A stretch of DNA of 64,000 bases from Microglena sp. YARC (Eukaryota; Chlorophyta; Chlorophyceae; Chlamydomonadales; Chlamydomonadaceae), in the NCBI GenBank assembly GCA_022414725.1, contig CM039464.1, positions 17,667,405 to 17,731,404 of the forward strand. The letters are read 5' to 3'. A program made the translations under genes and the position numbers. Positions 20,095-61,959 of the stretch are shown here, piece after piece; within the stretch, counting starts at the first letter, position 1; every line of letters begins with the position of its first letter. The notes under the pieces were generated by a model. That model had not been told where the DNA came from. It did not search any database and saw nothing but the letters and a program-made list of their open reading frames with translations.

Positions 20095-20720
20095 AGAATG
20101 CCATGTATGGCAACAACGCTTCTGTAAAATTGGCAAGGCCTCGATGCCCTTGGTGTCTCCAGGACCGTCCTCCGTCGATGGGCGGATAATAGCACGATCA
20201 GAACGATCCGGACTCCAGGCAACCAACGTCTCTTTGACCCAAGCAGCATCCAAGGCTACCTCATCGAGCAGGAAAAAAAACCCAGCAGTCGTCAAGTCAT
20301 TCTCTACGCACGTGTGTCCTCACACAAACAACAACCCGACCTGCTCAGACAGCAATTGTTCTTGCAAACCCATATTTCTGACAAACATTCCGGATGTGAG
20401 CAAGTCATTGAAGTCAAGGACATCGGATCAGGGCTCAACTTCAAGCGCCCAGGACTTTTACGAGTATTGGGACTCGTCACGGCAGGACTTGTATCGTCAA
20501 TTGTTGTGGCTTCCAAAGACAGGCTCGCAAGGTTTGGTTTCGAGCTCATTGAATGGATTTGCTCGCAGCACTCCTGCTCGATCATCGTTCTCGATCACCA
20601 AGACGGAGCCCCTGAAGACGAGCTTGGACAAGACCTCATGTCAATCGTTCAAGTGTATTGTTGCCGATGGAACGGCCGAAGAAGCTATAAAGTCAAATGC
20701 CAAACCCAAGTTGAGGACCT
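20095..20720 (+). pseudogene. tnpA: IS607 TnpA serine recombinase, frameshifted
   Basis: It matches the copy-2 gene at 34311 but has lost single bases in the HTH part (near 20110 and 20140) and gained two 9-base insertions (near 20195 and 20405). The catalytic-domain frame is open from about 20260 (ILYARVSSHKQQPDLL, with the nucleophilic Ser in the ARVSS motif) through SKDRLARFGFELIEWICSQH and GQDLMSIVQVYCCRWNGRR. The ARVSS and SKDRLAR signatures fit IS607 serine recombinases. The same frame stays open to 21024 across the start of tnpB. Confidence 0.8.
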
Positions 20721-21924
20721 TAAAGCTGAAGCTGAACCCAACAAAGGATCAGAAATCGATGCTGGCAGAGTTTGCGGGGTGCAGCCGGTTCATGTACAAC
20801 AAGGCGGTGGCAGCACGGTTGGGCGTCGGGAGCACTCACAAGTCTGTCTTCCGAATTCGAGACAGGTATGTGACGAACAAGGTGAGGGGGAAGGGGAAGA
20901 TGCCAAGCCCGTACTTCAAGAATCGCCAATGGTTGCTTCAGTGCCCCAAAAGCGTACGCCAAAGCGCAATCAAGGCTGCCTTGGCAAACATCAAGGCTTG
21001 CTTTTCGAATCTGAAAGCAGGTAACATCAAGCAGTTTTCAGCTCCGTTCAGACGGAAGAAGACAGAGCTTGAGAGGGGTTGGGTTATTGAGATGGATCAG
21101 AAGAACATTTCCAAGGATGGCGACAAACTCTTCATCTTCAAAGACATATTGGGCAACATGCGCTACTTTGGTAGCAAACAACTCCATAAGTTGATGCCTG
21201 AGGAAAACCCGACCCACGATCCAAAGGTCCAAAAATCCCGCTTCGGCGAATATTTCCTAGTCTTGTCTGTCGCTGCCAGGGACAGGAGGGCAGAGCGGAA
21301 GCCTGTCCATCCAGACAAGGTTGCAATTGCATCCATCGACCCAGGCGTCCGCAAAACAATGGTCACGTACTCACCAGAGAATGAGGAATCCTTCATGCTT
21401 GGTCAGGGACAGGCATCCGACCTTGTCAAACTCCTGCTGGTTCACGACAAGCTGCAGTCAAGGTTGGATACTGAGAAAACCTTACGATCAAAAGAGAGGA
21501 TGAAGATAAAGAAGCAGATGATTCGCATTCGGAAGAGAATTTTTTACCTCAAGAAAGAGTTTAGGGACCAGACAACAAATTTCTTGGCCGCTTGCTACGA
21601 TGTGTTGTTGGTACCTCAATTGGAGACGGCGAAGATGACAATCAGTGCTGAACGGGAGCTGACAACCAAGGTTGCCGTCAGATGCTGACTTTGAGCCACT
21701 CTGTGCTGTTCAATCGGCTGAAGGAGAAGTGTGAAGAGTACGGGACAGTGTTCTTGCATGTGCTTGAGCATTACACGAGTCAGACATGCCCTATGTGCGG
21801 TTTATTGAACAAGTGTGGAGAGACATACACCTGCAAGAACTGTCAATTCACCTGCGACAGAGACATTGTGGGGGCAGCTGGCATCTTCCTGAAGGCAGTT
21901 CGAACAGAAAATCCCTGTTCGTAA
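20690..21924 (+). pseudogene. tnpB: Fanzor2/TnpB RuvC nuclease, one frameshift
   Basis: TnpB family: N-terminal KLKLNPTKDQKSML and CSRFMYNKAVAARLG, RuvC-I SIDPGVRK (Asp codon 21338), RuvC-II VPQLETAK (Glu codon 21623), zinc ribbon CPMCG...CKNC, RuvC-III CDRDIVGAA. All catalytic residues are present. A one-base loss at about 21675 (GTTGCCGTCAG against GTTGCCCGTCAG in copy 2) breaks the frame between RuvC-II and the zinc ribbon. The codon matching the copy-2 start ATG is AAG here, so no proper start is visible. Family members are RNA-guided DNA endonucleases whose guide is encoded at the element's 3' end. Confidence 0.88.
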
Positions 21925-25779: not shown

Positions 25780-25888
25780 TGGAGTTGCCGAGAATCGAAC
25801 CCGGGTCTGTTGGTATCGGGTACCATAAGATTGACGGGAAATAAGAAAATTGCCCTTACCTTACGCTCTACCATTGAGCTACAACCCC
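25780..25888 (-). tRNA. tRNA-like gene with insert, isotype undetermined, copy 1
   Basis: Minus strand: acceptor GGGGTTG (25888-25882) pairs with CAACTCC (one G-T pair). The D-arm GCTCAATGGTAGAGC and the T-arm CCCGGGTTCGATTCTCGG are in the right places. The middle is about 35 bases longer than a plain tRNA, so an intron or a long variable arm is needed, and I could not place the anticodon stem with certainty. It could be a tRNA pseudogene. Confidence 0.5.
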
Positions 25889-31590: not shown

Positions 31591-33987
31591 ATGGAAATGA
31601 GCGACATCATTCGCGAAACCTATGATTGGCTCTTGCAATGCGGTCGAGACGTGGTCGGTGACACCGTCCTCATCCCTACCGGAGCGAAGAAACCTATCGT
31701 TTGTCACAAGGAGCCCGGGCAGTGGTCCATGGAAAAGGCGCATCTTTACATGGTCAAAAACCCTGAGCATGCGCAGTGGGGACTTCTCCTGGATTCGTTG
31801 TGCGTTGTCGGACGCCGACTCTGACGATGCGGTGGCGAAGATTGAGGCCCTGCAAGACCCTGACGTCGTCGAAGCCCTCTCGGTGTGCCCCATCCAACAG
31901 ACCAACAAGGGCCGGCATTATCTGTTCATTCGCCCAGAGTGGGCTGACGCGGAAGGTTACTGGGATGGCGCACGACAGGTCATCGGTTTTGACGCCGATT
32001 TGAAGACGCGTTGTTCCACCGGTACACGCGGCGTCTTGGCGATATGCCCTTCCTTGAACAAGACGTGGGTGCGTGAGCCGTGGGCTGCGGGGACTAAGCT
32101 CGTCGATATACCTCGGACGTTGATGGAGCTGGTGGCGAAACCAAAACAAACGAAACAAAAGAAACAAAAGTCAATCAAAGTTGTGGTCAATGCCGATATC
32201 GATCACGCAAGTGGTGCACCCGAGGCGTTTGATGAGGTAGCGGCGCTGGTCGATATCATCGCCGCTACCCGCGCAAGCTCATACCGCACATGGATGGAAG
32301 TCGGGTGGTGTCTGCACAACATATCGCCCACCCATCTCCCATTGTGGGAACTCTTCAGCAAAAAGTGCCCGGAGAAGTACACAAAGGGGAAGTGTGGCGA
32401 GGTATGGGGCACAATGAATTCGGATGATCGCGCGGGCTTGCGCTTGCGCTTGCGCCTAGGATCTTTGCACATGTGGGCCAGACACGACTCCCCGGTTGAG
32501 TATTGGGACATCGTCAGTCAGCGCGTCATCGAGGACATCCGCACGTGCAACGGAAGCCATAACGAGATCGCGCGCATCGCGAAAAAAAACTTGGCAAACG
32601 CATCGCTTCCGCGAGCACGAACGGCAAGATATGGTACGTATTCGACGGGCGATGGAAGACGGACGTCGCCGCGATCCACGTCAAGCACGAGCTGTCCACC
32701 GTTGTTCTAGAGCACTTCATTATCGCTATGAACAAGGAGAGAGCGTCCCAAAGCGCTTACGACATGCAGAGCAACGCGAGCACAAAGAACGACGCCGACC
32801 GGCTATCGCACATCACCGCGCGCCTCCAGGACGCGACCTTCAAGAATAACGTCCTGCAAGAGATGCTCGAGTACTTTTACGACCCGGACTTCATGAAGAA
32901 ACTCGACGCCGACCCAAACCTCTTAGGGTTCAACAACGGCGTGTGGGACCTCAAAAACGGCGTCTTCCGTCAAGGGCATCCGGAGGACATGGTCTCCATG
33001 TCCGTGGGATTCGATTACAATGTCGCAGTGTGCGAGGAATCAGCAGACCGCGTGCGGAAATACTGGGACACGATGCACCCCGACGACAACCAACGAGAGT
33101 ACCTCATCCACACATTTGCTAGACAGCTGTACGGAGACAGCGGACAAGAGCTCTTTCACATACACGCCGGCGCCAACGCGTCCGCCTCTAACGGGAAGAC
33201 CAAGTTCTTCGAAGTCATGGAGATCGCATTGGGCGACTACATCCGGAAATTCGGCGTGGAAATGCTGACAAGCAAGCAACGCATCGATCCAGGTCGCCCG
33301 ATGCCAGAGTTTGCGACGTGGAAGGGGGTCCGCATTATGTATTGCACAGAGCCAAATCACGACGAAGTCTTAAATTCCGGAGTCCTCAAGGATATGACCG
33401 GTGGGGAAGGCATCACCTACCGCCTCTTGCACTCCAGCGACATCGTAAGCTTCCGCCCGCAACACAAGATACACATCATGTGCAACGCCCCGCCGATGGT
33501 CGACAGTTCTGACTCTGGAGTCCAACGACGGATACAAAAACTCGACTACATCAGTCGGTTTGTGGACGCGGATGATGCGGACGCCAACAAATTCCTCTTC
33601 CCACGAGACGCCGGGCTTGTAGAGTCATTCAAGGCAGACGGAGCGATGCGCATGGAGTTCCTACGCACCCTTCTACACGCGTTTGCATACGCGTACAAGT
33701 TCGATATGCCCGATTCGTTAAAGCAGACCAGTGCGATGTACTTGAACGCGAACGACGCCGTGGCTATGTTCGTCGAAGAGCACGTCGCAGCCAGCCCGGA
33801 CAGCGCATTTCTGCTGAAGGAGGCCAAAGAACGCTTCAAGACATGCGAATATTTCAACGGGAAACTCAGCACGATCAAGACGGACCTGGAACGTCACCTA
33901 AGCGTCAGGTGTCTAGATCAAAGCCGCGTCAAAAGCCGCGGAAACGAAAATTTGCGAGGGGTTTTCAAAGGATACAGGCTGGTGTAA
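31591..33987 (+). CDS. D5-like primase-helicase (SF3), two frameshifts
   Basis: Start ATGGAAATGAGC at 31591. The N-terminal ~250 residues contain primase/polymerase-like segments (SVCPIQQTNKGRHYLFIRPE, RQVIGFDADLKTRCSTGTRG). A D5_N-type region and an SF3 helicase follow: Walker A GANASASNGKTKFF near 33170, Walker B region VRIMYCTEPNHDEVL, then GGEGITYRLLH and HKIHIMCNAPPMVDSSDSGV, and the arginine segment QRRIQKLDYISRF. It would unwind and prime viral DNA. The frame shifts near 31805 and again near 32581-32588 at a run of eight A, giving three pieces. A fragment of the same gene is at 48928-49101. D5 is a core giant-virus gene and the best viral marker in this window. Confidence 0.85.
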
Positions 33988-34218: not shown

Positions 34219-34310
34219 CGAAGGTTGCAACAGTTGACTCTTTTGCTTTCCGAAAATAAGTAAACCTAACAGTGTATAAGGAATTTGCATGTACTAAATA
34301 TCAGAATGCT

Positions 34311-35216
34311 ATGTATGGCAACCAACGCTTCTGTAAAATTGGCAAGGTCTCCGATGCCCTTGGTGTCTCCAGGACCGTCCTCCGTCGATGGGCGGATAAT
34401 GGCACGATCCGGACCCCAGGCCACCAACGTCTCTTTGACCCAAGCAGCATCCAAGGCTACCTCATCGAGCAGGAAAAAAAAACCAGCAGTCGTCTAGTCA
34501 TTCTCTACGCACGTGTGTCCTCACACAAACAACAACCCGACCTGCTCAGACAGCAATTGTTCTTGCAAACCCATATTTCTGACAAACATTCCGGATGCGA
34601 GCAAGTCAAGGACGTCGGATCAGGGCTCAACTTCAAGCGCCCAGGACTTTTACGAGTATTGGGACTCGTCACGGCAGGACTTGTATCGTCAATTGTTGTG
34701 GCTTCCAAAGACAGGCTCGCAAGGTTTGGTTTCGAGCTCATTGAATGGATTTGCTCGCAGCACTCCTGCTCGATCATCGTTCTCGATCACCAAGACGGAG
34801 CCCCTAAAGACGAGCTTGGACAAGACCTCATGTCCATCGTTCAAGTATATTGTTGCCGATGGAACGGTCGAAGACGCTACAATGTCAAATGCCAAACCCA
34901 AGTTGAGGACCTTAAAGCTGAAGCTGAACCCAACCAAGGCTCAGAAATCAATGCTGGTAGAGTTTGCGGGGTGCAGCCGGTTCATGTACAACAAGGCTGT
35001 GGCAGCACGGTTGAGCGTCGGGAGCACTCACAAGTCTGTCTTCCGAATTCGAGACAGGTATGTGACGAACAAGGTGAGGGGGGAGGGGAAGATGCCAAAC
35101 CCGTACTTCAAGAATCGCCAATGGTTGCTTCAGTGCCCCAAAAGCGTACGCCAAAGCGCAATCAAGGCTGCCTTGGCAAACATCAAGGCTTGCTATTAGA
35201 ATCTGAAAGCAGGTAA
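34311..35216 (+). CDS. tnpA: IS607 TnpA, HTH plus serine recombinase
   Basis: The ATG at 34311 gives an N-terminal MerR-like HTH (FCKIGKVSDALGVSRTVLRR, GHQRLFDPSSIQGYL), then the resolvase domain with ILYARVSSHKQ (Ser nucleophile), SKDRLARFGFELIEWICSQH, and the IS607-type GQDLMSIVQVYCCRWNGRR. IS607 recombinases have the HTH before the catalytic domain, as here, and are usually about 200 residues. This frame runs on for about 100 further residues, antiphase over the start of tnpB, so the natural stop seems lost. The catalytic part looks intact. Confidence 0.85.
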   Translation: MYGNQRFCKIGKVSDALGVSRTVLRRWADNGTIRTPGHQRLFDPSSIQGYLIEQEKKTSSRLVILYARVSSHKQQPDLLRQQLFLQTHISDKHSGCEQVKDVGSGLNFKRPGLLRVLGLVTAGLVSSIVVASKDRLARFGFELIEWICSQHSCSIIVLDHQDGAPKDELGQDLMSIVQVYCCRWNGRRRYNVKCQTQVEDLKAEAEPNQGSEINAGRVCGVQPVHVQQGCGSTVERREHSQVCLPNSRQVCDEQGEGGGEDAKPVLQESPMVASVPQKRTPKRNQGCLGKHQGLLLESESR

Positions 35217-44591: not shown

Positions 44592-45089
44592 TTAAAGATT
44601 CTCGGACCACGCGATCGAGGACTCGGGGATGATACCGGCACTCACCTGCCATCGCTGGTGCTTAGCCAACTGCTTCACCAACTTAATTCCGTTCTTACGG
44701 GTCTCATAAGATGTATCAATCGTGTCTACGAAACGGTCAACAAGAACGTCACTTGTAAAAGCACACTGACGCAGGCAACTGAACTTCTCGAAAGAAAGAA
44801 TATCCTCGATGTTCTTGCTACTACACAACTGAGCTAGGGCAATGGACAAATTACCCTTCGTAGTGCTCATAACCACTTGAAACCCCTCGCGACTGATGTT
44901 CATATGCAAAAGGGGGATGACACCCTTCACATAATCACTCGAGTGAAGGAAGCCCTCTTTCTCGGAAAAACGAATGTCGTGTGACTGAGCGTTCAACATG
45001 AACACAGCCAGCTTAGCTGCAAAAGTCGCATCTCCAGAAGTCTTCTTACGTTTTGAAGTAGAAGAGGAATTGCGGGGTGTTGAAGACAT
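44592..45089 (-). CDS. Hypothetical protein, 165 aa
   Basis: The ATG at 45089 (MSSTPRNSSSTSKRKKTSGD) lies 7 bases from the TA target of the mariner element, so its own upstream region has been pushed 3.4 kb away, to 48515. A Ser/Lys-rich start is followed by a helical, soluble domain (FAAKLAVFMLNAQSHDIRFS, ILSFEKFSCLRQCAFTSDVL, GIKLVKQLAKHQRWQVSAGI). The frame can be read back to 45185 but those codons are transposon sequence. Not recognised. Confidence 0.55.
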   Translation of the reverse strand: MSSTPRNSSSTSKRKKTSGDATFAAKLAVFMLNAQSHDIRFSEKEGFLHSSDYVKGVIPLLHMNISREGFQVVMSTTKGNLSIALAQLCSSKNIEDILSFEKFSCLRQCAFTSDVLVDRFVDTIDTSYETRKNGIKLVKQLAKHQRWQVSAGIIPESSIAWSENL

Positions 45090-45097
45090 TTTACATA

Positions 45098-45125
45098 CAG
45101 CTAGGGACATTTGATATTGGGACAC
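45098..45125 (+). repeat. Left terminal inverted repeat of the Fanzor1 transposon
   Basis: 28 bp starting CAGCTAGGGACATTTG, preceded by TA. Confidence 0.9.
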
Positions 45126-45159
45126 CTTATATTTTGGGGATTCTGAAAAGTTGACCAAT

Positions 45160-46167
45160 TCAAGATTTGTAACTGATCTTGTCAATACAGATACTGTCTT
45201 CAGGTGATTGACACAAAAAATTCAAGGCATCTAAAGACACTGAATTTACATGTTCAAAGTACCCTGAAAAGTCAAACTGATGGCTAACATCGTGCGCATC
45301 AATAATCCTTTTCAAAGCGTTACTGTAATCAAATATATCTGCTACATCTGGAATTATTGGGCACATGCAGCTATATTTTTGCTTGAGCAAACTAAAGACA
45401 TTCTCAATAGCGTTAAACTCTGGACTGTAAGGAGGTACAAAGAGTGGTCGTATTCCTACAGAATCGAACATAGAAATCGTCTCCTTTGAATGATGGAACT
45501 GGATATTGTCAAGGACAGCGACTGTACCCCGCTGTACATGTAACTCAGATACAAACTGTACAAAGTCGACTTTCTTGCAATTGTGATCAAGGATCTTATA
45601 ATGAACGATACCTTTAGCAGAAACGGCAGCAATTAGTGTCAATTTGGACATTCGCAATGTCCTAGAAATTTGGATATTTAAACGTTTGCCGCGTTGACAG
45701 TACCCTCTGCGACAAGTGTCACCAATGTAAAAACCCGCCTCATCGATGCTTAACAAATCCGATGTCGGAACGGCGAAATACTCCTTACAAAAACGGTCGA
45801 CAGAAGATTTGTGGTCAGTCTTGTGCCGAACTGTTTTGTATGCGCGCTTGCGGGTGTAACCAAGTTTGCGTGTGTAGCGTCCACAAGTTTTTGGAGACAT
45901 CTTGACAGAGGACAGAGAAGTCACACCCTCTGCAAGCTGAGACATTGTCAAGAAGGGATTGGAGTCAATCAGTTGTTTTATAGCAGCCTTGATATCTTCT
46001 GTAATGACGCTCACCCTTTTCTTCCGATGATGTTTTATATTGGCTTTGGTGACCCAACGTTGGAGTGATGATTTTGATACTTAGTACAGCAAACTAACTT
46101 TCCTCAAACTACGATTATAGTATTTGTAGTGAACAACCGCGCGGTGTCTTATCTCTGCATCAATCAT
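45160..46167 (-). pseudogene. Tc1/mariner (IS630-like) DDE transposase with one stop
   Basis: Coding starts at an ATG at 46167 (MIDAEIRHRAVVHYKYYNRS) with an HTH, hits a single in-frame TAA at about 46079-46081, and goes on in the same frame as VSKSSLQRWVTKANIKHHRK to the end at 45160, 336 codons in all. The DDE core shows LLSIDEAGFYIGD (first Asp), VAVLDNIQFHHS (second Asp) and PPYSPEFNAIENVFSLLKQK (Glu). The enzyme cuts and pastes the element at TA. A shorter product from a start after the stop would lack part of the HTH. Confidence 0.88.
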
Positions 46168-46363
46168 GATAACGTAGGAAATGGTATAAGGAAATGTGGG
46201 TGCAATATTATATCACCAAAAGAAAAAGAATACTCACCCCCTCTTAATGGGGGTAGTGCAAGACAAAGGAGATGACGATATTAATATCAGCGTCGTCAAG
46301 AAGACGCTTAATTCTCTGTGCATGGATGTATCGAGGCATCAGATCTCCTGAAGGATACAAAGC
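46168..46363. promoter_or_regulatory. Divergent spacer between transposase and Fanzor1
   Basis: The 196 bp holds AT-rich stretches (GCAATATTATATCACC; ATATTAATATC palindrome) and an imperfect CCCCCTCTTAATGGGGGTAG hairpin. Both genes read away from it, so promoters are likely here. Confidence 0.4.
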
Positions 46364-48256
46364 ATGGTACTCTTAATCAACCACGCAGTTGCAGAGGCAT
46401 ACTTATTCGCAAACTTGCATATCACAAGATGCCTCGATGATGGAGACTTTGACGTCAAGCAGTTGCCACACCTGGATCGGAACTTTTATTACAGGTGCCT
46501 CCTTGCGGTATCGACCTCCAATGTTCGAAAGGATACTCTGGGCCAGAGCTTCAATGATACCATGGTTGCTTTCGACGCCCTAAGACCTGCAGGATACGTG
46601 AAGGTGGACGTTCGTCCTTGGGGACAAGTAATCGCAGACGTCTCAATACAAATGGCGACCATGGCGTGCAACAGTGTCTGGGCAAACGTGGACAGGGTCG
46701 TTATCAAGTACCTGCGCTTGAAACATCCCTCTCTGAAGAAACATTTCAAGAAGATTGTCAAAGCGGTGGTCCAGTACCCAGAATCGAAAATCGACACAAT
46801 CATCCCAGAGGGCCTCGTGCATGCGATCCACATCAAAGAGGTTGTCAGTCACTTGAGGGCTCTCTTTCCGCTGCCAAGAGGGAAGCAGTTCAACACTAGA
46901 GCGCACCTGACAATGCGATTGTTCCATCACGTGCTTACAGAGTTGGGAGAGGTCGGACGAGTGGATCCGAAAGATAAAAAAACAAGAAAAAGTCACCCCC
47001 GTCTGTTCAGTATCCTTCCTCGCAAGAACGGCTTCACAATTTCGTACGTCCCGATATCTTCCATGACTTTCATGAAGCTTCTCAGCATGGGTGACTCGCC
47101 ACTCGAGAGCGTCTCTGGCGATGGACGTTACGAGAACCATACAATGCTGTGGCGAAAGTACTTTAATGTCCAAGGTCTTGAGACGAAAAGGTCTCGCTTT
47201 GACAACCGAATCCTCAGCGACGGTAAAGGGGTATCCGTCCAAATGAAGCAGAAGGGTAAAGAAGAGGTCGTTGAAGAAGGAGAAAACGCAGGCTATCCCA
47301 AGGACGCAAATATCGTAGAGTGCAAGGACGCAGTGGGTGCGCTGCGTGTCGGAGTAGACCCTGGAATGACAGATATCGTCACGGTAGCATCTTCTGCAGG
47401 TCGCATCGAGTCTTTCAGCTTGGCTCGCTTTAGCGAAGTTGCTGGGTACAATACAAGCAAGCGTCGCACCTACAAATGGAAAGACGAGACTCAAGACCTC
47501 GTGAAGTCCATTCCATCGCCTAATACGAGCAACATGGTCGACCTGCAGGACCATGTCAGAGCTTATCTCGAAGCGCTCCCGATCCTCCTACAACACAGAG
47601 CCAACAAAGGCTACCGATCTATGCGATTCTTTCGATACGTTGGTAAACAGAAGACGATTGAAAAGGTATGCGATGTGATTGCACCAAGGGCACAGACGAC
47701 CGTTGTTGGCTTCGGCAACTGGTCCAACCAAGGGTATGGTATCAGTCGTTCATGTTCTGGGCCCATCAAAGAGATCAGGAGGTGCCTCTCACGTCGTAAG
47801 AATGTTTTGTTCAAAAACGTCGACGAACGCAACACTTCTTGTAAATGTCACGGCTGCTTCCAGAGGCTTGTCAACATGAAGGCAGACAGCGTAGTCTGGC
47901 GCGGAGTGTGCAAAGAGTCCCCAATCGACGGGTCTATAACTGTTGAGAAGCAGAAGATGGTGGTGAAGAACGTCAAGGTCTTCAAAGTACTGCACTGTAG
48001 AGACAGTGTCAAAAGCGCATCATCCAATGTGCGCTGTGGTGCAACCTGGAACCGAGACGTGAACGCTGCCAAGAACCTTCTTCTGCTTCTGACAACGTGG
48101 ATGGACGGGAGAGAGCGACCTGAGGCATTCTGTGTTCCCTCGCCTCCCCCCAAAACCGCAGTTTCCATCGAGGCGAGTGTGAGCGCTAAACCGACCGACC
48201 CACCTGGGTTTGTCAGCAGCTTGCCTTGTTATCCTTTGGGCCAGCTTAAATGCTGA
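46364..48256 (+). CDS. Fanzor1-type RNA-guided RuvC nuclease, full length
   Basis: 630 codons from the ATG at 46364 without interruption. RuvC-I VGVDPGMTDIVTVAS (Asp332). The Fanzor-type relocated glutamate lies in NVDERNTSCKCHGC (Glu488), next to a zinc-finger Cys cluster (CKCHGC ... RCGATW). RuvC-III is NRDVNAAKNLLLLL (Asp565). FGNWSNQG marks the usual RuvC-II position, where Fanzor1 proteins lack the TnpB glutamate. The long N-terminal ~320 residues (KKHFKKIVKAVVQYPESKID, then FTISYVPISSMTFMKLLSMG) fit the larger Fanzor1 form. Expected to bind an RNA from the element's 3' end and cut DNA. Divergent from the mariner transposase. Confidence 0.9.
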   Translation: MVLLINHAVAEAYLFANLHITRCLDDGDFDVKQLPHLDRNFYYRCLLAVSTSNVRKDTLGQSFNDTMVAFDALRPAGYVKVDVRPWGQVIADVSIQMATMACNSVWANVDRVVIKYLRLKHPSLKKHFKKIVKAVVQYPESKIDTIIPEGLVHAIHIKEVVSHLRALFPLPRGKQFNTRAHLTMRLFHHVLTELGEVGRVDPKDKKTRKSHPRLFSILPRKNGFTISYVPISSMTFMKLLSMGDSPLESVSGDGRYENHTMLWRKYFNVQGLETKRSRFDNRILSDGKGVSVQMKQKGKEEVVEEGENAGYPKDANIVECKDAVGALRVGVDPGMTDIVTVASSAGRIESFSLARFSEVAGYNTSKRRTYKWKDETQDLVKSIPSPNTSNMVDLQDHVRAYLEALPILLQHRANKGYRSMRFFRYVGKQKTIEKVCDVIAPRAQTTVVGFGNWSNQGYGISRSCSGPIKEIRRCLSRRKNVLFKNVDERNTSCKCHGCFQRLVNMKADSVVWRGVCKESPIDGSITVEKQKMVVKNVKVFKVLHCRDSVKSASSNVRCGATWNRDVNAAKNLLLLLTTWMDGRERPEAFCVPSPPPKTAVSIEASVSAKPTDPPGFVSSLPCYPLGQLKC

Positions 48257-48362
48257 AATACAGAGATGAAGGGCAAACATATGTACTCGCCTTTAGCTGA
48301 TCTACCCATTGGGTTCAAGGGTCACCGGTAGGGTGTCCCACAAATTGCGTCTCCGACTGTAC
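48229..48362 (+). ncRNA. Candidate Fanzor1 guide RNA / 3' element segment
   Basis: It begins in the last nine Fanzor1 codons and runs through the 3' noncoding part to CTCCGACTGTAC. It is duplicated as a separate piece at 57288-57422 with about four mismatches. In characterised Fanzors the guide RNA overlaps the 3' end of the gene and the element's right end, which is this position. Confidence 0.4.
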
Positions 48363-48379
48363 ACATGTATACATGTATA

Positions 48380-48485
48380 TAAAAACGACTCGCTATCCTA
48401 AGATATCAGCACCGATGAATCACAATTCCGCTCCAGACCATGTTTCGCAACCAGTAAAAATCCTCCGGGAGGCAGGAACGCCCAT
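48380..48485 (-). repeat. Half of the 51998-type MITE inside the transposon
   Basis: Minus-strand ATGGGCGTTCCTGCCTCCCG, then GGTTGCGAAACATGGTCTGG and GAATTGTGATTCATCGGTGC match the MITE at 51998-52161. Its end abuts the outer inverted repeat directly. Confidence 0.75.
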
Positions 48486-48486
48486 T

Positions 48487-48514
48487 GTGTCCCACTTTCA
48501 AATGTCCCTAGCTG
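48487..48514 (-). repeat. Right terminal inverted repeat of the Fanzor1 transposon
   Basis: 28 bp, the complement of 45098-45125 with two mismatches, followed by TA. Confidence 0.9.
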
Positions 48515-48819
48515 TATGAACGCATTCCTCGTTGCCCCCACCCCTCCGATTATATTTTGTATACCGAGTTTGCCCATCCCCCCCCTGTCCCATTAATACA
48601 GTTTTTGCTTACGCCGTCGCGAGCGTAACTCTTAGATGCTTCCGTTCCTGTGAAACATTTGTCGCCATACTGAATCGCCTCCGGAATTCTTCAGTATTTA
48701 TTTTGTGTTGAAATAATTGTTGTTCCCGAGATGAAGACCGACCGTCCGTCCGTCCATTCATGACACACGGTGGCGGATCATCGTCTCGAGGAAGTGGTGT
48801 AAACAACTGTTGCAACCCT
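48515..48819. other. Original upstream region of the 44592-45089 gene, then repeats
   Basis: Read on the minus strand, GGTATACAAAATATAATCGG lies where the promoter of the interrupted gene would be. 48665-48735 is one unit of the ~112 bp array (CTTCAGTATTTATTTTGTGT), followed by CCGTCCGTCCATTCATGACA. No gene. Confidence 0.45.
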
Positions 48820-48935
48820 TTAACGAACCTTATTCTCCTCTTCAATTCACAGCCAGCAAGACACATACATACATACATTTTATTATTGTTCGGTCATGTT
48901 CCTACACATTGAGGAGGAGGACGACGTCCGCGCGT
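48820..48935 (+). repeat. Segment duplicated from or to 42356-42470
   Basis: It shares AACGAACCTTATTCTCCTCT and CACATTGAGGAGGAGGACGA. Confidence 0.85.
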
Positions 48936-49101
48936 GCAACGGGAGCCATAACGAGATCGCACGCATCGCGAAACGGAATACTTGGAAACCGCATCGCTGC
49001 CGCGAGTACGAACGGAAAGAAGCTATTATGGTACGTAGTATTCGACGGGCGATGGGTGACGGTCGCCAAGTTCCAAGTCAAGTACGAGCTGTCCACCGTT
49101 G
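48928..49101 (+). pseudogene. Fragment of the D5-like primase-helicase gene
   Basis: It matches 32540-32703 (CGTGCAACGGGAGCCATAAC, GACGGGCGATGGGTGACGGT, GTACGAGCTGTCCACCGTTG) with point changes and small indels. It covers about 55 residues between the primase and helicase parts. It carries CGAAACGGAATAC where the main copy has a run of A. Not a functional gene. Confidence 0.85.
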
Positions 49102-49102
49102 A

Positions 49103-49357
49103 TCAGTCTGTAATCCACGATCTCAATCTGAGTCCCACTACAACTGTCGGGTCATATCCATATGTCGAGACCCCTTCCTTTCCCAACAGAGTGATAAAAA
49201 ATTTGTCAAAGTGATATGGCAGCGGAACACAATGCTTATGCATGTACTGCAAAAAAGCAATCTTTAAAATTTTGTAATCCATGTAGGCGCCTGACTTTTT
49301 CTCACATTGCTCGAAAAAGGCAGCAATTATGTCGTTTAGTTGTCTTGTTGTATCCAT
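49103..49357 (-). CDS. Small hypothetical protein, 84 aa, D5-tail-like
   Basis: Clean ATG (49357): MDTTRQLNDIIAAFFEQCEK, then YKILKIAFLQYMHKHCVPLP, FDKFFITLLGKEGVST and VVVGLRLRSW. The pattern (Cys-containing helix, AF..YM, F..L...G, G..L) resembles small DNA-binding domains at the C-terminus of giant-virus D5-type proteins and standalone relatives. Tentative. It abuts the D5 fragment. Confidence 0.55.
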   Translation of the reverse strand: MDTTRQLNDIIAAFFEQCEKKSGAYMDYKILKIAFLQYMHKHCVPLPYHFDKFFITLLGKEGVSTYGYDPTVVVGLRLRSWITD

Positions 49358-51609: not shown

Positions 51610-51639
51610 GCGGTCTCTTGTGTTCACCTATATTGGAGC

Positions 51640-51757
51640 GGAATTGTGATTCCTCGGTGCTGATATCTCAGGCTAACTAACGAGTTCCGGAGGCTCTAAA
51701 TTCTGAGTAGAAATTTCAAAAAATCCGCCGTGAGGTTTGAACGCCCAATACAAAGGA
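51640..51757 (+). mobile_element. Truncated copy of the 51998-type MITE
   Basis: It begins at TTGGAGCGGAATTGTGATTC and ends GAACGCCCAATA. The left third is missing and the right end is degenerate. Confidence 0.7.
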
Positions 51758-51859: not shown

Positions 51860-52332
51860 ATCGCAAACGATGATCACATGTCAAGCAGAGGCCTGCTAGA
51901 CAATAGATCTCGTATATCGATAGGGTATCGCGGGCCCCACGGAGTGGGGTAGGGGAATTGAGCTGCAGAAACCTGTCAAGGCATCAATCATCACATAATG
52001 GGCGTTCCTGCCTCCCGGCCGATTTTGACTGGTTGCGAAACATGGTATGGAGCGGAATTGTGATTCCTTGGTGCTGATGTCTCAAGCTAGCGAGTCATTC
52101 AGGAGGCTCTAAATCCTGATTAGAAATTTAAAAAAATCAGCCGGGAGGCAGGAACGCCCATTACATGCAAACCTGTGGAAAACTGTCGCATCCACACCGT
52201 CCATTCATGACACACGGTGGCGGATCATCGCCTCGTTGAAGTGGTGTAAACGCGCGCATTGGGATAGCATAGGAGCAGCTCGACAGCGATCATGGCGCAC
52301 ATTACAACCAATGTCGTGTACGTGTTGGTTGT
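51860..52332 (+). pseudogene. Duplicate of the T5orf172 upstream region and 5' end, with MITE
   Basis: It matches 39735-40066: R1 core (51925-51965), GTCAAGGCATCAATCATCAC, GAAAACTGTCGCATCCACAC, AGCAGCTCGACAGCGATCAT and the first ~13 codons (MAHITTNVVYVLVV). The match then stops. A 164 bp MITE interrupts it. Confidence 0.85.
51998..52161. mobile_element. 164 bp MITE with TA duplication
   Basis: The ends ATGGGCGTTCCTGCCTCCCG are inverted repeats over about 28 bp. TA flanks both sides (51996-51997, 52162-52163). The uninterrupted site is seen at about 39866 in the paralogous segment. Confidence 0.88.
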
Positions 52333-56179: not shown

Positions 56180-56524
56180 ATGGAAACGGAAAACAAAAAA
56201 AACAAGATGAAACCTACAAAGACATTGACCGTATCTTTACCTATTGGGTTTCACATGGGACTTGAAGAATGGATAGATTCGCAAACACAACACAGGGACG
56301 AGGCAATATACGCCCTGCTCGCACACGGTCTACACGCAGTGTGGACGATACCAAAAACAACATCGAAGGATTATCCGGGTCGTCGTTCAGGCAGATCGTC
56401 GGATACTGATGATGATCCAAATGACATAAGTGAGGCGGCGCACATCCAGGCGAGCGCCTACAGAGGACCACGGTCTGCAGCATTTGATAAGGATATCGGA
56501 TCGTTGAGAGTGGTGTCAAGGTAG
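56180..56524 (+). CDS. Small basic protein, possible ribbon-helix-helix regulator
   Basis: The ATG at 56180 (METENKKNKMKPTK) comes after a purine-rich AAAGAAGAAGAGGAGAAGAC. KTLTVSLPIGF could be the RHH strand, followed by two helices MGLEEWIDSQ and RDEAIYALLAHGLHAVW; the pattern fits RHH loosely. The C-terminal half is polar. The DNA coding ISEAAHIQASAYRGP recurs on the minus strand near 28025-28065, so a fragment of a related gene is there. Confidence 0.45.
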   Translation: METENKKNKMKPTKTLTVSLPIGFHMGLEEWIDSQTQHRDEAIYALLAHGLHAVWTIPKTTSKDYPGRRSGRSSDTDDDPNDISEAAHIQASAYRGPRSAAFDKDIGSLRVVSR

Positions 56525-57287: not shown

Positions 57288-57422
57288 GTACAGTCGGAGA
57301 CGCAATTTGTGGGACGCCCTACCGGTGACCCTTGAACCAAATGGGTAGATCAGCTAAAGGCGGGTACATATTTTTGCCCTTCATCTCTGTATTTCAGCAT
57401 TTAAGCTGGCCCAAAGGATAAC
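57288..57422 (-). mobile_element. Stand-alone copy of the Fanzor1 3' segment
   Basis: It matches 48229-48362 in reverse orientation with about four mismatches. It starts at TACAGTCGGAGACGC and ends at CCCAAAGGATAAC, within the last Fanzor1 codons. The start after TA looks like a transposon end. Confidence 0.85.
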
Positions 57423-58070: not shown

Positions 58071-58718
58071 ATGATCCGATTGTCTGAAATCTATGCAAAA
58101 TCACTGTCGACATCAAACATCTTATATAGCGATAATGCACCCATTAAAGGAGTGCGATCGCGACCAGGTGTTAAAGAAGCACCATCGATGCCATTTGAAC
58201 AAGATACAGATTCAGGATTGTTCAATGCATCAAGTAATGTATTAGGATTTGCTGCAGGAGCATATACTACGCTCATTGCATCATCTTCCAATTTACAAGC
58301 CAATACGCAAATCACAACATCTTCAAATATCGTGCCTCTCAACGACAATGTCTCACAATTAGGAACAGTAACAAAGAAGTTCGCAAAACTGTATGCAACA
58401 GATATCTATGGAGCATCTGCTACATTTAACACACTCGGAGGAACGGCCATCTCAAGTATCGTCACTTCCACAAGTAGCAATGTCGCAGCCAGTTCTGCAG
58501 CGGTCAAATCAGCATACGATAGTGCCGTATCAGCTTCCAATCAGACGTACGGCATCGGCGCGCTCGATAGTAATGGTGATATCCTTCTCAGGGGCAACTT
58601 CCGCATCTCCAAAACTGCCAATATATACAAAGGTACAGAGGTATTCAGTAGCGGTGGCGGTGGTGGTATCATCACTTCCGACTCTAATATTGTCCCTGGT
58701 GTGAATGGGTTTAGGTAA
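58071..58718 (+). CDS. Fibre-like structural protein, probably continuing into RCC1 repeats
   Basis: The ATG at 58071 follows CCTATATAAA, a TATA-like leader. 215 residues rich in Ser/Asn/Thr/Ala with phage-tail-fibre-like repeats: SGLFNASSNVLGFAAGAYTT, SNIVPLNDNVSQLGTVTKKF, AKLYATDIYGASATFNTLGG, GALDSNGDILLRGNFRISKT. It resembles the N-terminal shaft parts of viral fibre or adhesion proteins. The stop at 58716 is only 10 bases before the open RCC1 frame, and both end or begin without their own terminus, so a single long protein split by a frameshift is plausible. Confidence 0.6.
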   Translation: MIRLSEIYAKSLSTSNILYSDNAPIKGVRSRPGVKEAPSMPFEQDTDSGLFNASSNVLGFAAGAYTTLIASSSNLQANTQITTSSNIVPLNDNVSQLGTVTKKFAKLYATDIYGASATFNTLGGTAISSIVTSTSSNVAASSAAVKSAYDSAVSASNQTYGIGALDSNGDILLRGNFRISKTANIYKGTEVFSSGGGGGIITSDSNIVPGVNGFR

Positions 58719-58728
58719 GAAACAATAA

Positions 58729-61700
58729 CACGGAAGAAACAATAACACTAATTCATCAGTTTCGATCGATGTCTCGAGCTTCGGATCTCTTGTCGGTAAA
58801 ACGATCGTGGCCATTGCATGCGGCAACCTACACACGCTTGCACTTGACTCGACGGGACGCGTGCACGCATGGGGATTGAACACCATCGGCCAGCTAGGAA
58901 ATAATACTACCACTAATTCATTAGTGCCGATCGATGTCTCGAGCTTCGGATCTCTTGTCGGTAAAACGATCGTGGCCATTGCGGGCGGCTACTATCACAC
59001 GCTTGCCCTTGACTCCACGGGACGCGTGCACGCATGGGGATACAACTCCGAAGGCCAGCTCGGAATAAACAATACCACTAATTCATCAGTCCCGATCGAT
59101 GTCTCTAGTTTCGGATCTCTTGTCGGTAAAACGATCGTGGCCATTGCGGGTGGCGGCTTTCACACACTTGCCCTTGACTCGACGGGACGCGTGCACGCAT
59201 GGGGAAGAAACAATTTCGGCCATCTCGGAAGAAACAATACCACTCAATCAAATGTGCCGATCGATGTCTCTAGTTTCGGATCTCTTGTCGGTAAAACGAT
59301 CGTGGCCATTTCGGGCGGCATCAATCACACGCTTGCCCTTGACTCGACGGGACGCGTGCACGCATGGGGATACAACTCCGAAGGCCAGCTCGGAAGAAAC
59401 AATACCACTAATTCATCAGTTTCGATCGATGTCTCGAGCTTCGGATCTCTTGTCGGTAAAACGATCGTGGTCATTGCATGCGGCAACAATCACACGCTTG
59501 CCCTTTACTTGACGGGACGCGTGCACGCATGGGGATTGACCGCTCAAGGCCAGCTCGGAATAAACAATACCACTAATTCATCAGTCCCTCTCTTAATCGA
59601 CAAGACTGCGCGTGACTACCATCCTCGTGTCTTATCGACCGGTCTTGGTTCTCACAAATTGCTAACGAATATCGGCATTACCTCCAGTTCCTCCCTCATG
59701 GCGGTAGGCACGAATGCTTCCCGTCAGATCGGCGATAACACGGCGATCGATAGGCACATTCCCGTCGATGTTGGTGTTGGAAGTTTTGGAAGTGTCATCA
59801 TCAGTTCAGCAGAGAGTGTTACGCACAGCGCGATCGTTTTACAAAGCGGTGAAGTCTGGTGCTGGGGTAATAATACATATGGTCAATGCGGGAAGAATAC
59901 AGCTGGTGCTGTAGTGAGCGTTCCCACTAAAGTCGTTAGTATCACGAATGCAGTCGAAGTCGCATGTGGAAACGGGTTCACATTCGTACGCAATGCTGAC
60001 AATACGGTCCTGGCATTCGGTAACAATGCGAGTGGACAATTAGGTGTTGGAATGAGTATTGTTGCAACATCCACATTCACACCTACCCTTATAAGTGGAT
60101 TGGTAAGTATCAAACAGATTGCGGCAGGTACATCTCATGCTGCTTCCATCGATGGCTCAGGTACTTTGCGTGTCTGGGGTTCGGGTATACTGGGCAAATT
60201 GGGATTGGGTGATACTTCTAATAAAGATGTACCCACAATCGTGGATGTGTCCTTATTGGACTTTGCGAAAGCGACACGCGTTGCTCTTGGAGGTGATCAT
60301 ACAGTCGTTGTATGTAGCGAATCTGGAAAAGTTTACACAGCAGGTCTGAACGATGTCGGACAATTGGGTCGATCTACTGGATTCGGGAGTGGTGTGGGTA
60401 CCAATGTATTTGGTGCAGTGACAGATATGCCTACACCTGCAACGCCTTTGCGTGCAGCTTGTGGTTTGAAACATACTGCATTGCATGTGTCGAGCGATCG
60501 TATTGTTACTTTTGGCGATCGTGGTAATGGACAAACGATCGTTTCGAGTGGCGCTGCATGGATGCCGCAATTAGTGGAAGTTATCGGGGATGGCGAGGCG
60601 GCATACGATGTGCGTGCACTCGTGGCGGGGGCAACGTCTACACACGTGGAAATGCCGCCTAGATCGGAAGATGTGAATGGGTACGGAAGTGTGCCGCAAC
60701 GCATCTTGTCTTCGGCAATACAGAAAACATGGGGAAGAAGGAGTGCCAGTGCCTTGCCAACGAATTCGAAAATAGGTGATTTCTCCATTATGATATTATC
60801 GACAGGTAGCATTATCACCTGTGGAGTGAACATCAACGGCCAACTAGGAAATAACACGACATCATCAGGTGCGACGACAACATTACAAACCATATCGAGT
60901 AATGGATCTCTGAATGGTAAAACGATCGTGGCCATTGCGGGCGGTCAATATCACACGCTTGACCTTGACTCAACGGGACGCGTGCACGCATGGGGAAGAA
61001 ACGCCGAAGGCCAGCTAGGAATTAATACTACCACTCAATCAAATGTCCCGATCGATGTATCGAGCTTCGGATCTCTTGTCGGTAAAACGATCGTGGCCAT
61101 TGCGGGCGGCGATGTTCACACGCTTGCCCTTGACTCGATGGGACGCGTGCACGCATGGGGAAACAACACCCAAGGTCAGCTCGGAAGAAATACTACCACT
61201 GGTTCATTAGTGCCGATCGATGTCTCGAGTTTCGGATCTCTTGTCGGTAAAACGATCGTGGCCATTGCGGGCGGCAGCAATCACACGCTTGCCCTTGACT
61301 CGACGGGACGCGTGCACGCATGGGGATGGAAAGCCTACGCCCAGCTCGGAAATAATACTACCACTCAATCAAATGTCCCGCTCGATGTCTCGAGTTTCGG
61401 ATCTCTTGTCGGTAAAACGATCGTGGCCATTGCGGGTGGCGGCTTTCACGCACTTGCCCTTGACTCGACGGGACGCGTGCACGCATGGGGAAACAACGGT
61501 CAAGGTCAGGTCGGAAATAATACTACCACTGGTTCATTAGTGCCGATCAATGTCTCTAGTTTCGGATCTCTTGTCGGTAAAACGATCGTGGCTATTTCGG
61601 GCGGCTTCAATCACACGCTTGCCCTTGACTCGACTGGACGCGTGCACGCATGGGGATGGAGCGACAAAGCCCAGGTCGGAAATAATAGTACCACTCAATC

Positions 61701-61959
61701 AGCAGTGGCGATCGATGTCTCGAGCTTCGGATCTCTTGTCGGTAAAACGATCGTGGCCATTGCGGGCGGCAGCAATCACGCGCTTGCCCTTGACTCGACG
61801 GGACGCGTGCACGCATGGGGACACAACGTTCGAGGCCAGCTAGGAAATGGTAGTACCACTAATTCATCAGTCCCTGTTTTAGCGTTCACAACCGTTACAG
61901 GGACAAACTTGTTCGTGAACTTCACAGGCACTCACTTCACTCTTTGTGGCTTTTGTTGA
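58729..61959 (+). CDS. RCC1-repeat protein, 3' end cut by a LINE
   Basis: The frame is open from 58729 without an ATG near its start; the earliest codons already match an RCC1 unit (GRNNNTNSSVSIDVSSFGSL). About six near-identical units (58781-59590) are followed by a diverged RCC1-like middle (59590-60780) and seven more near-identical units to 61900. Each unit has HTLALDSTGRVHAWG, GQLG and SLVGKTIVAIAGG; the DNA period is exactly 165 bp (55 codons). RCC1 units form seven-bladed propellers that bind proteins or chromatin; giant viruses carry many such genes. The last ~10 codons (FTLCGFC) are LINE sequence. Confidence 0.85.
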   Translation, partial: HGRNNNTNSSVSIDVSSFGSLVGKTIVAIACGNLHTLALDSTGRVHAWGLNTIGQLGNNTTTNSLVPIDVSSFGSLVGKTIVAIAGGYYHTLALDSTGRVHAWGYNSEGQLGINNTTNSSVPIDVSSFGSLVGKTIVAIAGGGFHTLALDSTGRVHAWGRNNFGHLGRNNTTQSNVPIDVSSFGSLVGKTIVAISGGINHTLALDSTGRVHAWGYNSEGQLGRNNTTNSSVSIDVSSFGSLVGKTIVVIACGNNHTLALYLTGRVHAWGLTAQGQLGINNTTNSSVPLLIDKTARDYHPRVLSTGLGSHKLLTNIGITSSSSLMAVGTNASRQIGDNTAIDRHIPVDVGVGSFGSVIISSAESVTHSAIVLQSGEVWCWGNNTYGQCGKNTAGAVVSVPTKVVSITNAVEVACGNGFTFVRNADNTVLAFGNNASGQLGVGMSIVATSTFTPTLISGLVSIKQIAAGTSHAASIDGSGTLRVWGSGILGKLGLGDTSNKDVPTIVDVSLLDFAKATRVALGGDHTVVVCSESGKVYTAGLNDVGQLGRSTGFGSGVGTNVFGAVTDMPTPATPLRAACGLKHTALHVSSDRIVTFGDRGNGQTIVSSGAAWMPQLVEVIGDGEAAYDVRALVAGATSTHVEMPPRSEDVNGYGSVPQRILSSAIQKTWGRRSASALPTNSKIGDFSIMILSTGSIITCGVNINGQLGNNTTSSGATTTLQTISSNGSLNGKTIVAIAGGQYHTLDLDSTGRVHAWGRNAEGQLGINTTTQSNVPIDVSSFGSLVGKTIVAIAGGDVHTLALDSMGRVHAWGNNTQGQLGRNTTTGSLVPIDVSSFGSLVGKTIVAIAGGSNHTLALDSTGRVHAWGWKAYAQLGNNTTTQSNVPLDVSSFGSLVGKTIVAIAGGGFHALALDSTGRVHAWGNNGQGQVGNNTTTGSLVPINVSSFGSLVGKTIVAISGGFNHTLALDSTGRVHAWGWSDKAQVGNNSTTQSAVAIDVSSFGSLVGKTIVAIAGGSNHALALDSTGRVHAWGHNVRGQLGNGSTTNSSVPVLAFTTVTGTNLFVNFTGTHFTLCGFC

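Follow-up and report, generated by a model that had tools for sequence, protein, structure and literature searches.

The window analysed here is a stretch of 64,000 nucleotides from the green alga Microglena sp. YARC (C3:17667405-17731404, within a 568-Mb assembly of 2,390 contigs), and the subject of this report is a transposon within it that carries two genes, one for a DDE transposase and one for a Fanzor1 protein. All positions given below are those of the window.

The transposase gene (45160-46167, 335 codons), which the initial annotation had also recognised, lies on the minus strand and is of the Tc1/mariner (IS630-like) type. It matches DDE_3 at 1.3e-22, and an open relative of 335 aa (P0073), 98% identical to it, matches the IS630 model at 2.4e-36. 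The spacing from the second D to the E, counted by eye, is 34 residues. The stop that had been noticed in this gene was located at codon 29 (46081-46083). Among the 57 copies of the element described below, a count that includes copies in which this codon is missing, the stop is common to the window copy, L021 and L028, and it has therefore probably moved with the element.

The second gene, on the plus strand, is a Fanzor1 gene, whose product is, to judge from its sequence, a predicted RNA-guided nuclease. It had been described as an unbroken, full-length frame of 630 codons. That frame is indeed open (46364-48256) and contains D332, E488 and D565, but it is not of full length. Its ATG at 46364 is codon 40 of a 669-codon gene (46247-48256), so the first 39 codons are missing, and the gene is broken by a TGA at codon 35 (46349-46351) that was seen in the window copy only among the 57. 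The closest relative (P0001, 669 residues) is 99% identical and has a start equivalent to 46247. Residues within codons 1-39 are conserved (K18 in 61/61 and L21 in 60/61 of the relatives with a residue there, 62 being aligned), so the lost stretch belongs to the family. A complete Fanzor1 open reading frame is thus not present in the window copy.

Two signatures used for Fanzor1 by Yoon et al. (2023, PMC10711439) are both found in the frame, namely the DPG motif and a glutamate six residues ahead of a zinc finger. The RuvC motif D332-P333-G334 has its counterpart in 71 of 72 relatives (the D itself in 62/62 of those aligned), and E488, which is followed after six residues by C495-x-x-C498, is a glutamate in 61/62. 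The whole string DPG...E-x6-CxxC occurs in 54 of the 72 relatives, fragments included. The RD motif after the zinc finger supplies D565, an aspartate in all 61 relatives with a residue at that position. The Fanzor1 motif given by Bao and Jurka (2013, PMC3627910) is likewise found in the window frame. A profile built from 64 aligned sequences matched three solved Fanzor1 proteins, SpuFz1 (5.7e-25), PpFz1 (5.8e-14) and GtFz1 (5.2e-4), which bears out the earlier view that a Fanzor1 is carried on a Tc1/mariner-type transposon. The search of Pfam gave only a TNB-domain match, at 3.2e-4, below the cut-off.

Limits of the element

The element is real and spans 45096-48361 (3,266 bp). The initial annotation had described a complete element that continued to 48516, bounded by inverted arms with TA at each edge. 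Such arms exist: 45096-45125 and 48487-48516 agree at 28 of 30 positions, TA stands on both sides, and the likeness is beyond chance, the 19-nt core (≤3 mismatches) occurring at only two places in the window and in none of 100 shuffles. These features would suit a single mariner copy of 45096-48516 in which the guide-RNA region, up to 48516, forms part of a long right end, but this explanation is scarcely credible in view of what is found at the right arm and inside of it. The left arm (45096-45125, plus strand) is a genuine terminal inverted repeat, since the same 30-mer, with 0-3 mismatches, stands at the left end of 42 of the 57 copies. The outer right arm (48487-48516, minus strand) shows 0-3 mismatches to those 42 left ends vs 14-19 to the right ends of 56 copies, and two copies have left ends identical to it. 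The arm is therefore an inverted left-end fragment of another copy, 155 bp beyond the true right end. None of the first 40 copies is contiguous with the window copy past 48374; homology stops at 48361-48374 in 39 of them and at 48304 in L013. Sequence matching 48384-48494 is also present in L010, L034 and L042, but apart from the main match and not contiguous with it. The interval between 48361 and 48487 holds a short spacer and ~103 bp of a palindromic, TA-flanked repeat (48384-48486, minus strand), which is a piece of a different repeat lying outside the transposon (89% identical to 51996-52163, with similar pieces near L010, L034 and L042). Moreover, 48384-48516 folds worse than 200/200 shuffles.

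The true right terminal inverted repeat (48332-48361, minus strand) is imperfect, ends in the TA at 48360-48361, and recurs with 0-4 mismatches at the right ends of 56 of the 57 copies, L013 having no right end. The element's own two ends align with gaps only (score 27 of a possible 60), both having the form TACAG...GGGACA; among 117 TACAG sites, the inner right end (TACAG...GGGACAC) is the best left-arm-like site after the arms themselves. TA is found at both ends of the copies, as a duplicated target. An empty site with different limits had been named in advance as evidence that would tell against an end at 48516. Sites of this kind were found as empty paralogues of the targets of other copies, in which a single dinucleotide separates the left flank from the sequence that follows the inner end; they bear on the right limit, and none was found for the window copy itself.

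Copies in the genome and selection on the two genes

A protein search of the host assembly revealed at least 70 Fanzor1 places (70 scored of 2,240 first-look candidates), the 80 matches being reduced to 70 since 10 rows belong, as second parts, to copies counted already. The 57 copies examined comprise the window copy and 56 of the other 69 places, 13 listed places being left out. Copies were picked by protein similarity, and their flanks played no part in the choice.

Both genes are open in 8 of the 57 copies. The Fanzor1 frame is open in 31 and broken in 26, while at least 95% of the transposase is present in 21, of which 11 have it open. Less than half of the transposase is left in 26 copies, and the Fanzor1 frame is open in 13 of these. 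Seven copies (L013, L015, L016, L018, L037, L042 and L051) have a common internal deletion in which 45234 is joined to 46127; this group is a transposase-less lineage that has multiplied. A further pair, L034 (C1, nearly full-length) and L070 (C2, internally deleted), agrees across 40 nt of the right flank except for one change, which represents either insertion at the same site or duplicated DNA.

Ratios of non-synonymous to synonymous substitution (dN/dS; medians, Nei-Gojobori) were determined for two chosen groups, A (40 copies) and B (11 copies), with L048, L050, L052, L057, L060 and L061 standing outside both; the pairs compared share history and are not independent tests. The ratio between A and B came to 0.246 for each gene, with 440 pairs compared for Fanzor1 and 115 for the transposase. 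Within B, it was 0.253 for Fanzor1 (55 pairs) and 0.469 for the transposase (10 pairs). The initial annotation had reasoned, from a stop seen in the transposase only, that the nuclease is kept or that the stop is recent. For the window copy the relation is the reverse, as its nuclease carries the TGA met in no other copy and its transposase carries a stop found also in L021 and L028. For the family, the first half of that suggestion, retention of the nuclease, is supported, given the ratio between subfamilies and the 13 of 26 transposase-poor copies with an open nuclease. The same two observations, together with the low ratio within B and the strict CATA flank described below, argue against Fanzor1 being a decaying passenger without a role for the element. 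That explanation is in accord with the 26 broken nuclease genes, that of the window copy included, and with 24 CATA targets that are still empty for one guide (see below), and is considered unlikely.

Relatives were also sought outside the host genome. No relatives were found among the IMG/VR viral contigs with the single protein, the alignment, the transposase, or the left-end or right-end pattern; phages gave no protein match and plasmids no megablast match. In prokaryote genomes, one 3-kb contig (L001) from a Bacteroidetes metagenome bin contains, at 1-420, a Fanzor1 C-terminal piece that is 31% identical, with GTAGGGGTGTCCC approximately 30 nt past the stop. This contig is probably eukaryotic contamination and was kept out of the counts. 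Contigs of equal length were considered as a sign that Fanzor1 and transposase relatives lie together, an argument that was dropped after two coincidences (chance 0.18).

The CATA flank, the right-end block and a proposed mechanism

The left border of the element is marked by CATA (45094-45097, plus strand), which consists of a host CA and the TA target site and is the predicted target-adjacent motif (TAM) of the nuclease. In the window copy, the left site reads ...TTTTACA/TA. CA precedes the TA in 41/41 distinct left flanks, obtained from the 42 left ends with ≤3 mismatches, as compared with 456 of the 5,570 TA sites that lie in the window but not in the element (8.2%; binomial P ~3e-45). The rule is obeyed in group A (30/30), in group B (11/11) and in L048 (1/1), with or without a transposase gene. 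Four looser left ends (L035, L039, L047 and L057) were left out of this count, two of them with CA and two damaged ones without it, and no left end could be recognised in the rest; the left-end DNA search was also kept out, its query having contained CA. On the right, 54 distinct flanks have no fixed base in the eight positions past the TA, and TG, the expectation from a symmetric CATATG target, occurs in 4/54. As CATA stands on all 41 left borders while the right borders are random, it is likely the mark read by Fanzor1.

For three elements, the flanks joined around one TA match uninterrupted paralogues: L024 (89/92), L045 (86/89) and L044 (86/92). One empty paralogue of the L024 target lies in the window (56457-56490, minus strand; 89/92 identical to the joined flanks), with CAGA replacing CATA. 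A genome-wide pattern search identified 40 empty paralogues of the L024 target, and 0 for the reversed pattern; the dinucleotide between the flanks is TA in 24 of the 40. The empty paralogues indicate that the CA belongs to the host and that the duplication is TA. A lead according to which the surviving empty paralogues carry a broken CATA had its basis in 3/3 elements with both flanks homologous (~0.005 by hand, given the divergence) and, further, in 4/5 guide matches of at least 30/40. It is contradicted by the L024 target, at which CATA is absent from only 16/40 paralogues, and was dropped.

At the other end of the element, a conserved block (48228-48361, plus strand) forms the predicted omega-RNA scaffold, for which ~48262-48361, ending in TA, is the likeliest extent. 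The first 15 nt of the right flank (48362-48376, plus strand) would be the guide, by analogy with SpuFz1, whose RNA extends 14-15 nt beyond the conserved right-end region (Saito et al. 2023, PMC10432273); this flank varies from copy to copy. The stop codon is separated from the right end by 105 nt, near the 80-nt region of SpuFz1 loci (PMC10432273). Guide-RNA limits had previously been drawn from 48516 and have to be abandoned, the right end lying at 48361; the corrected right end shifts the predicted guide of the window copy by 155 bp. Between L011 and L059 (one copy per subfamily), 67/74 right-end columns are identical vs 204/268 fourfold-degenerate sites (76%; P = 0.0013). A consensus structure for 22 right ends has 99.1% of its cells paired vs 35-52% when slid, and was exceeded by 4/500 sets of shuffled partners in cells paired and in covariation score. 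No Rfam match was obtained at 48000-48700. The guide RNA of the right end is a prediction only.

The right end also occurs without the nuclease gene. Among the best 40 of 1,230 first-look candidates in a right-end search, 8 coincide with listed Fanzor1 places; of 8 others that were fetched, the nuclease gene is broken off in 5 and 3 run past the fetched stretch. The last 134 bp are kept in all of these matches by the design of the query, with 48146 and 48220 as the starts of the two shortest. Nuclease-less copies may number hundreds. One lies in the window itself, where 48228-48362 recurs at 57422-57288 (97%), the match stopping at the TA; this solo right-end fragment of the same family (57289-57422, minus strand, 134 bp) contains no nuclease and ends at the same TA. 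It was considered as a maintained stand-alone RNA gene, a view that was rejected, as pairs predicted in the 100-nt fold are hit by 2/4 of its changes and its folding is no better than that of shuffles. The fragment is read as a remnant.

Taken together, the data make it probable that 45096-48361 is a Tc1/mariner-type Fanzor1 transposon with a stop in each gene, whose predicted nuclease would be guided by the right-end RNA and the adjoining host DNA and would recognise the left CATA. In the mechanism envisaged, the transposase would cut and paste the element into a TA, and the right-end RNA, composed of the scaffold (~48262-48361) and ~15 nt of flank, would load Fanzor1. The complex would then cut CATA plus guide where the element is absent, at the excision site or on the other chromosome, and repair from the filled copy would put the element back. 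The window copy itself would at most supply RNA to the nucleases of other copies. A bolder proposal, offered tentatively and with more doubt than confidence, is that the TAM of Fanzor1, and not the transposase, decides which insertions exist and so gives polarity to a cut-and-paste element whose transposase asks only for TA. Only insertions with CATA on the TAM side of the nuclease would then be licensed, restored or copied, and nuclease-less copies would act as a shared guide bank for the remaining nucleases.

A rival explanation, somewhat less likely than not, makes the transposase the source of the one-sided motif, with CATA being read unequally through the two differing ends and Fanzor1 having merely come to accept a motif present in every copy. 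The obedience of every one of the 41 left flanks suggests a rule at insertion over later survival, and since the left and right ends differ, the transposase complex need not be symmetric. On general grounds, however, a mariner that inserts at TA is expected to be orientation-blind. The same CATA is, furthermore, found with the SpuFz1 elements, in which Saito et al. (PMC10432273) found no transposase.

Several observations weigh against a guided nuclease acting as outlined here. Of the 40 empty paralogues of the L024 target, 24 read CATA, and in 18 of these the 15 guide nt are identical throughout; intact CATA plus guide sites are likewise found in L044 (four, with 16-nt matches to the L038/L052 guide) and in L024 (the L029 guide). 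That such sites have stayed empty gives no support to efficient copying into paralogues, which is at best inefficient. As regards the protein, the zinc-finger cysteines are not universal, the first pair being present in 49/62 and 48/61 relatives. The dN/dS of Fanzor1 within A (0.447; 780 pairs) is above the figure between subfamilies, which, with a transposase value of 0.769 (244 pairs), fits young decaying copies, as expected. As regards the RNA, one pair of the consensus is changed on both sides, 137/500 shuffles equal this, and independent events are few. The single-sequence folds are also unexceptional, z being -0.44 for 48228-48361, with 67/200 shuffles doing as well, and -0.97 for 48262-48361, with 37/200 doing so.

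Surroundings and relation to known Fanzor1 elements

A 165-codon frame has its start codon at 45087-45089, with the element 6 bp upstream of it; a 96% identical relative of this frame, also of 165 aa, has the same start. The palindromic, TA-flanked repeat of which a piece lies in the element's right flank is a 168-bp element, with a whole copy at 51996-52163 and a partial copy at 51634-51752; as pieces of it are found near L010, L034, L042 and L057, it seems to land in or beside transposon ends. IS607-type DNA is found at 20144-21688 and 34272-35216 (plus strand), with a TnpB/Fanzor2-like frame bearing the DPG motif and a serine-recombinase frame, so that Fanzor1 and Fanzor2 types are both found in one 64-kb window. 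Giant-virus-like helicase-primase frames (PriCT_2, D5_N) lie at 31622-33987 (plus strand), with fragments near 48896-49104; a piece of the helicase-primase DNA is repeated beside the right flank of the element (48920-49104, 82%). The D5-like neighbour had no match in IMG/VR. RCC1-repeat frames occur in the window, among them a long one of 1,050 codons (58807-61959, plus strand) next to a Phage_fiber_2-like frame (58071-58718), and retrotransposon-like frames were noted by eye. The IS607-type, D5-like, RCC1 and retrotransposon-like frames together indicate a mixture of giant-virus-like and eukaryotic DNA. An Rfam tRNA match at 25780-25888 (minus strand) is 109 bp long vs a model of 71 positions and thus probably contains an intron; ARAGORN, in bacterial mode, found no tRNA.

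The kind of element described here is already known, and what distinguishes this family is that it is unusually complete. Mariner elements with Fanzor1 (PGv-1, PUl-1 and PUl-4) were reported by Bao and Jurka (PMC3627910). Like the present family, these have Tc1/mariner ends and TA duplications, and contain Fanzor1, accompanied by a mariner transposase in some elements and not in others; in one case they have viral neighbours. The four examples called 'most interesting' by those authors are single-copy, in contrast to the at least 70 places in one genome, the one-sided CATA and the right-end block found here. The Spu-1 elements of Spizellomyces punctatus resemble the present ones in their 30-nt ends, CA before the left end, CATA and a right-end guide-RNA region, and in their many ghost copies without nuclease (PMC10432273), which the nuclease-less right-end matches recall. 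The Spu-1-like combination of CA before the left end and nothing fixed on the right is found here as well, and the TAM measured for SpuFz1 in that paper is CATA. Its authors found no transposase between the Spu-1 ends, whereas 21 of the 57 copies here hold at least 95% of one, open in 11. SpuFz1 is no more than a distant relative of the window nuclease (1e-8 across query residues 215-591).

A third comparison is provided by the Fanzor1 element of Spodoptera frugiperda ascovirus (SfAV), as described by Yoon et al. (PMC10711439). There, as here, Fanzor1 is carried on an inverted-repeat transposon, and the guide RNA scaffold is predicted to take in the ends together with the target duplication. 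The SfAV element differs in being non-autonomous, with two copies and Fanzor1 only, and families related to it have 4-bp TTAN duplications, according to Bao and Jurka (PMC3627910). In the literature covered, in part and by titles and abstract openings, no earlier description of the Fanzor1 elements of this genome was found.

According to Saito et al. (PMC10432273), the biological role of Fanzor remains unknown. The value of the present family lies in its completeness as a natural system, since one genome offers copies with both genes open, with the nuclease only and with the right end only, shows a one-sided CATA and has targets that occur both filled and empty. Two questions can be put to it directly, namely whether the transposase suffices on its own for the one-sided CATA and whether an excised element is put back by the nuclease. 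The natural job of Fanzor would thereby become testable.

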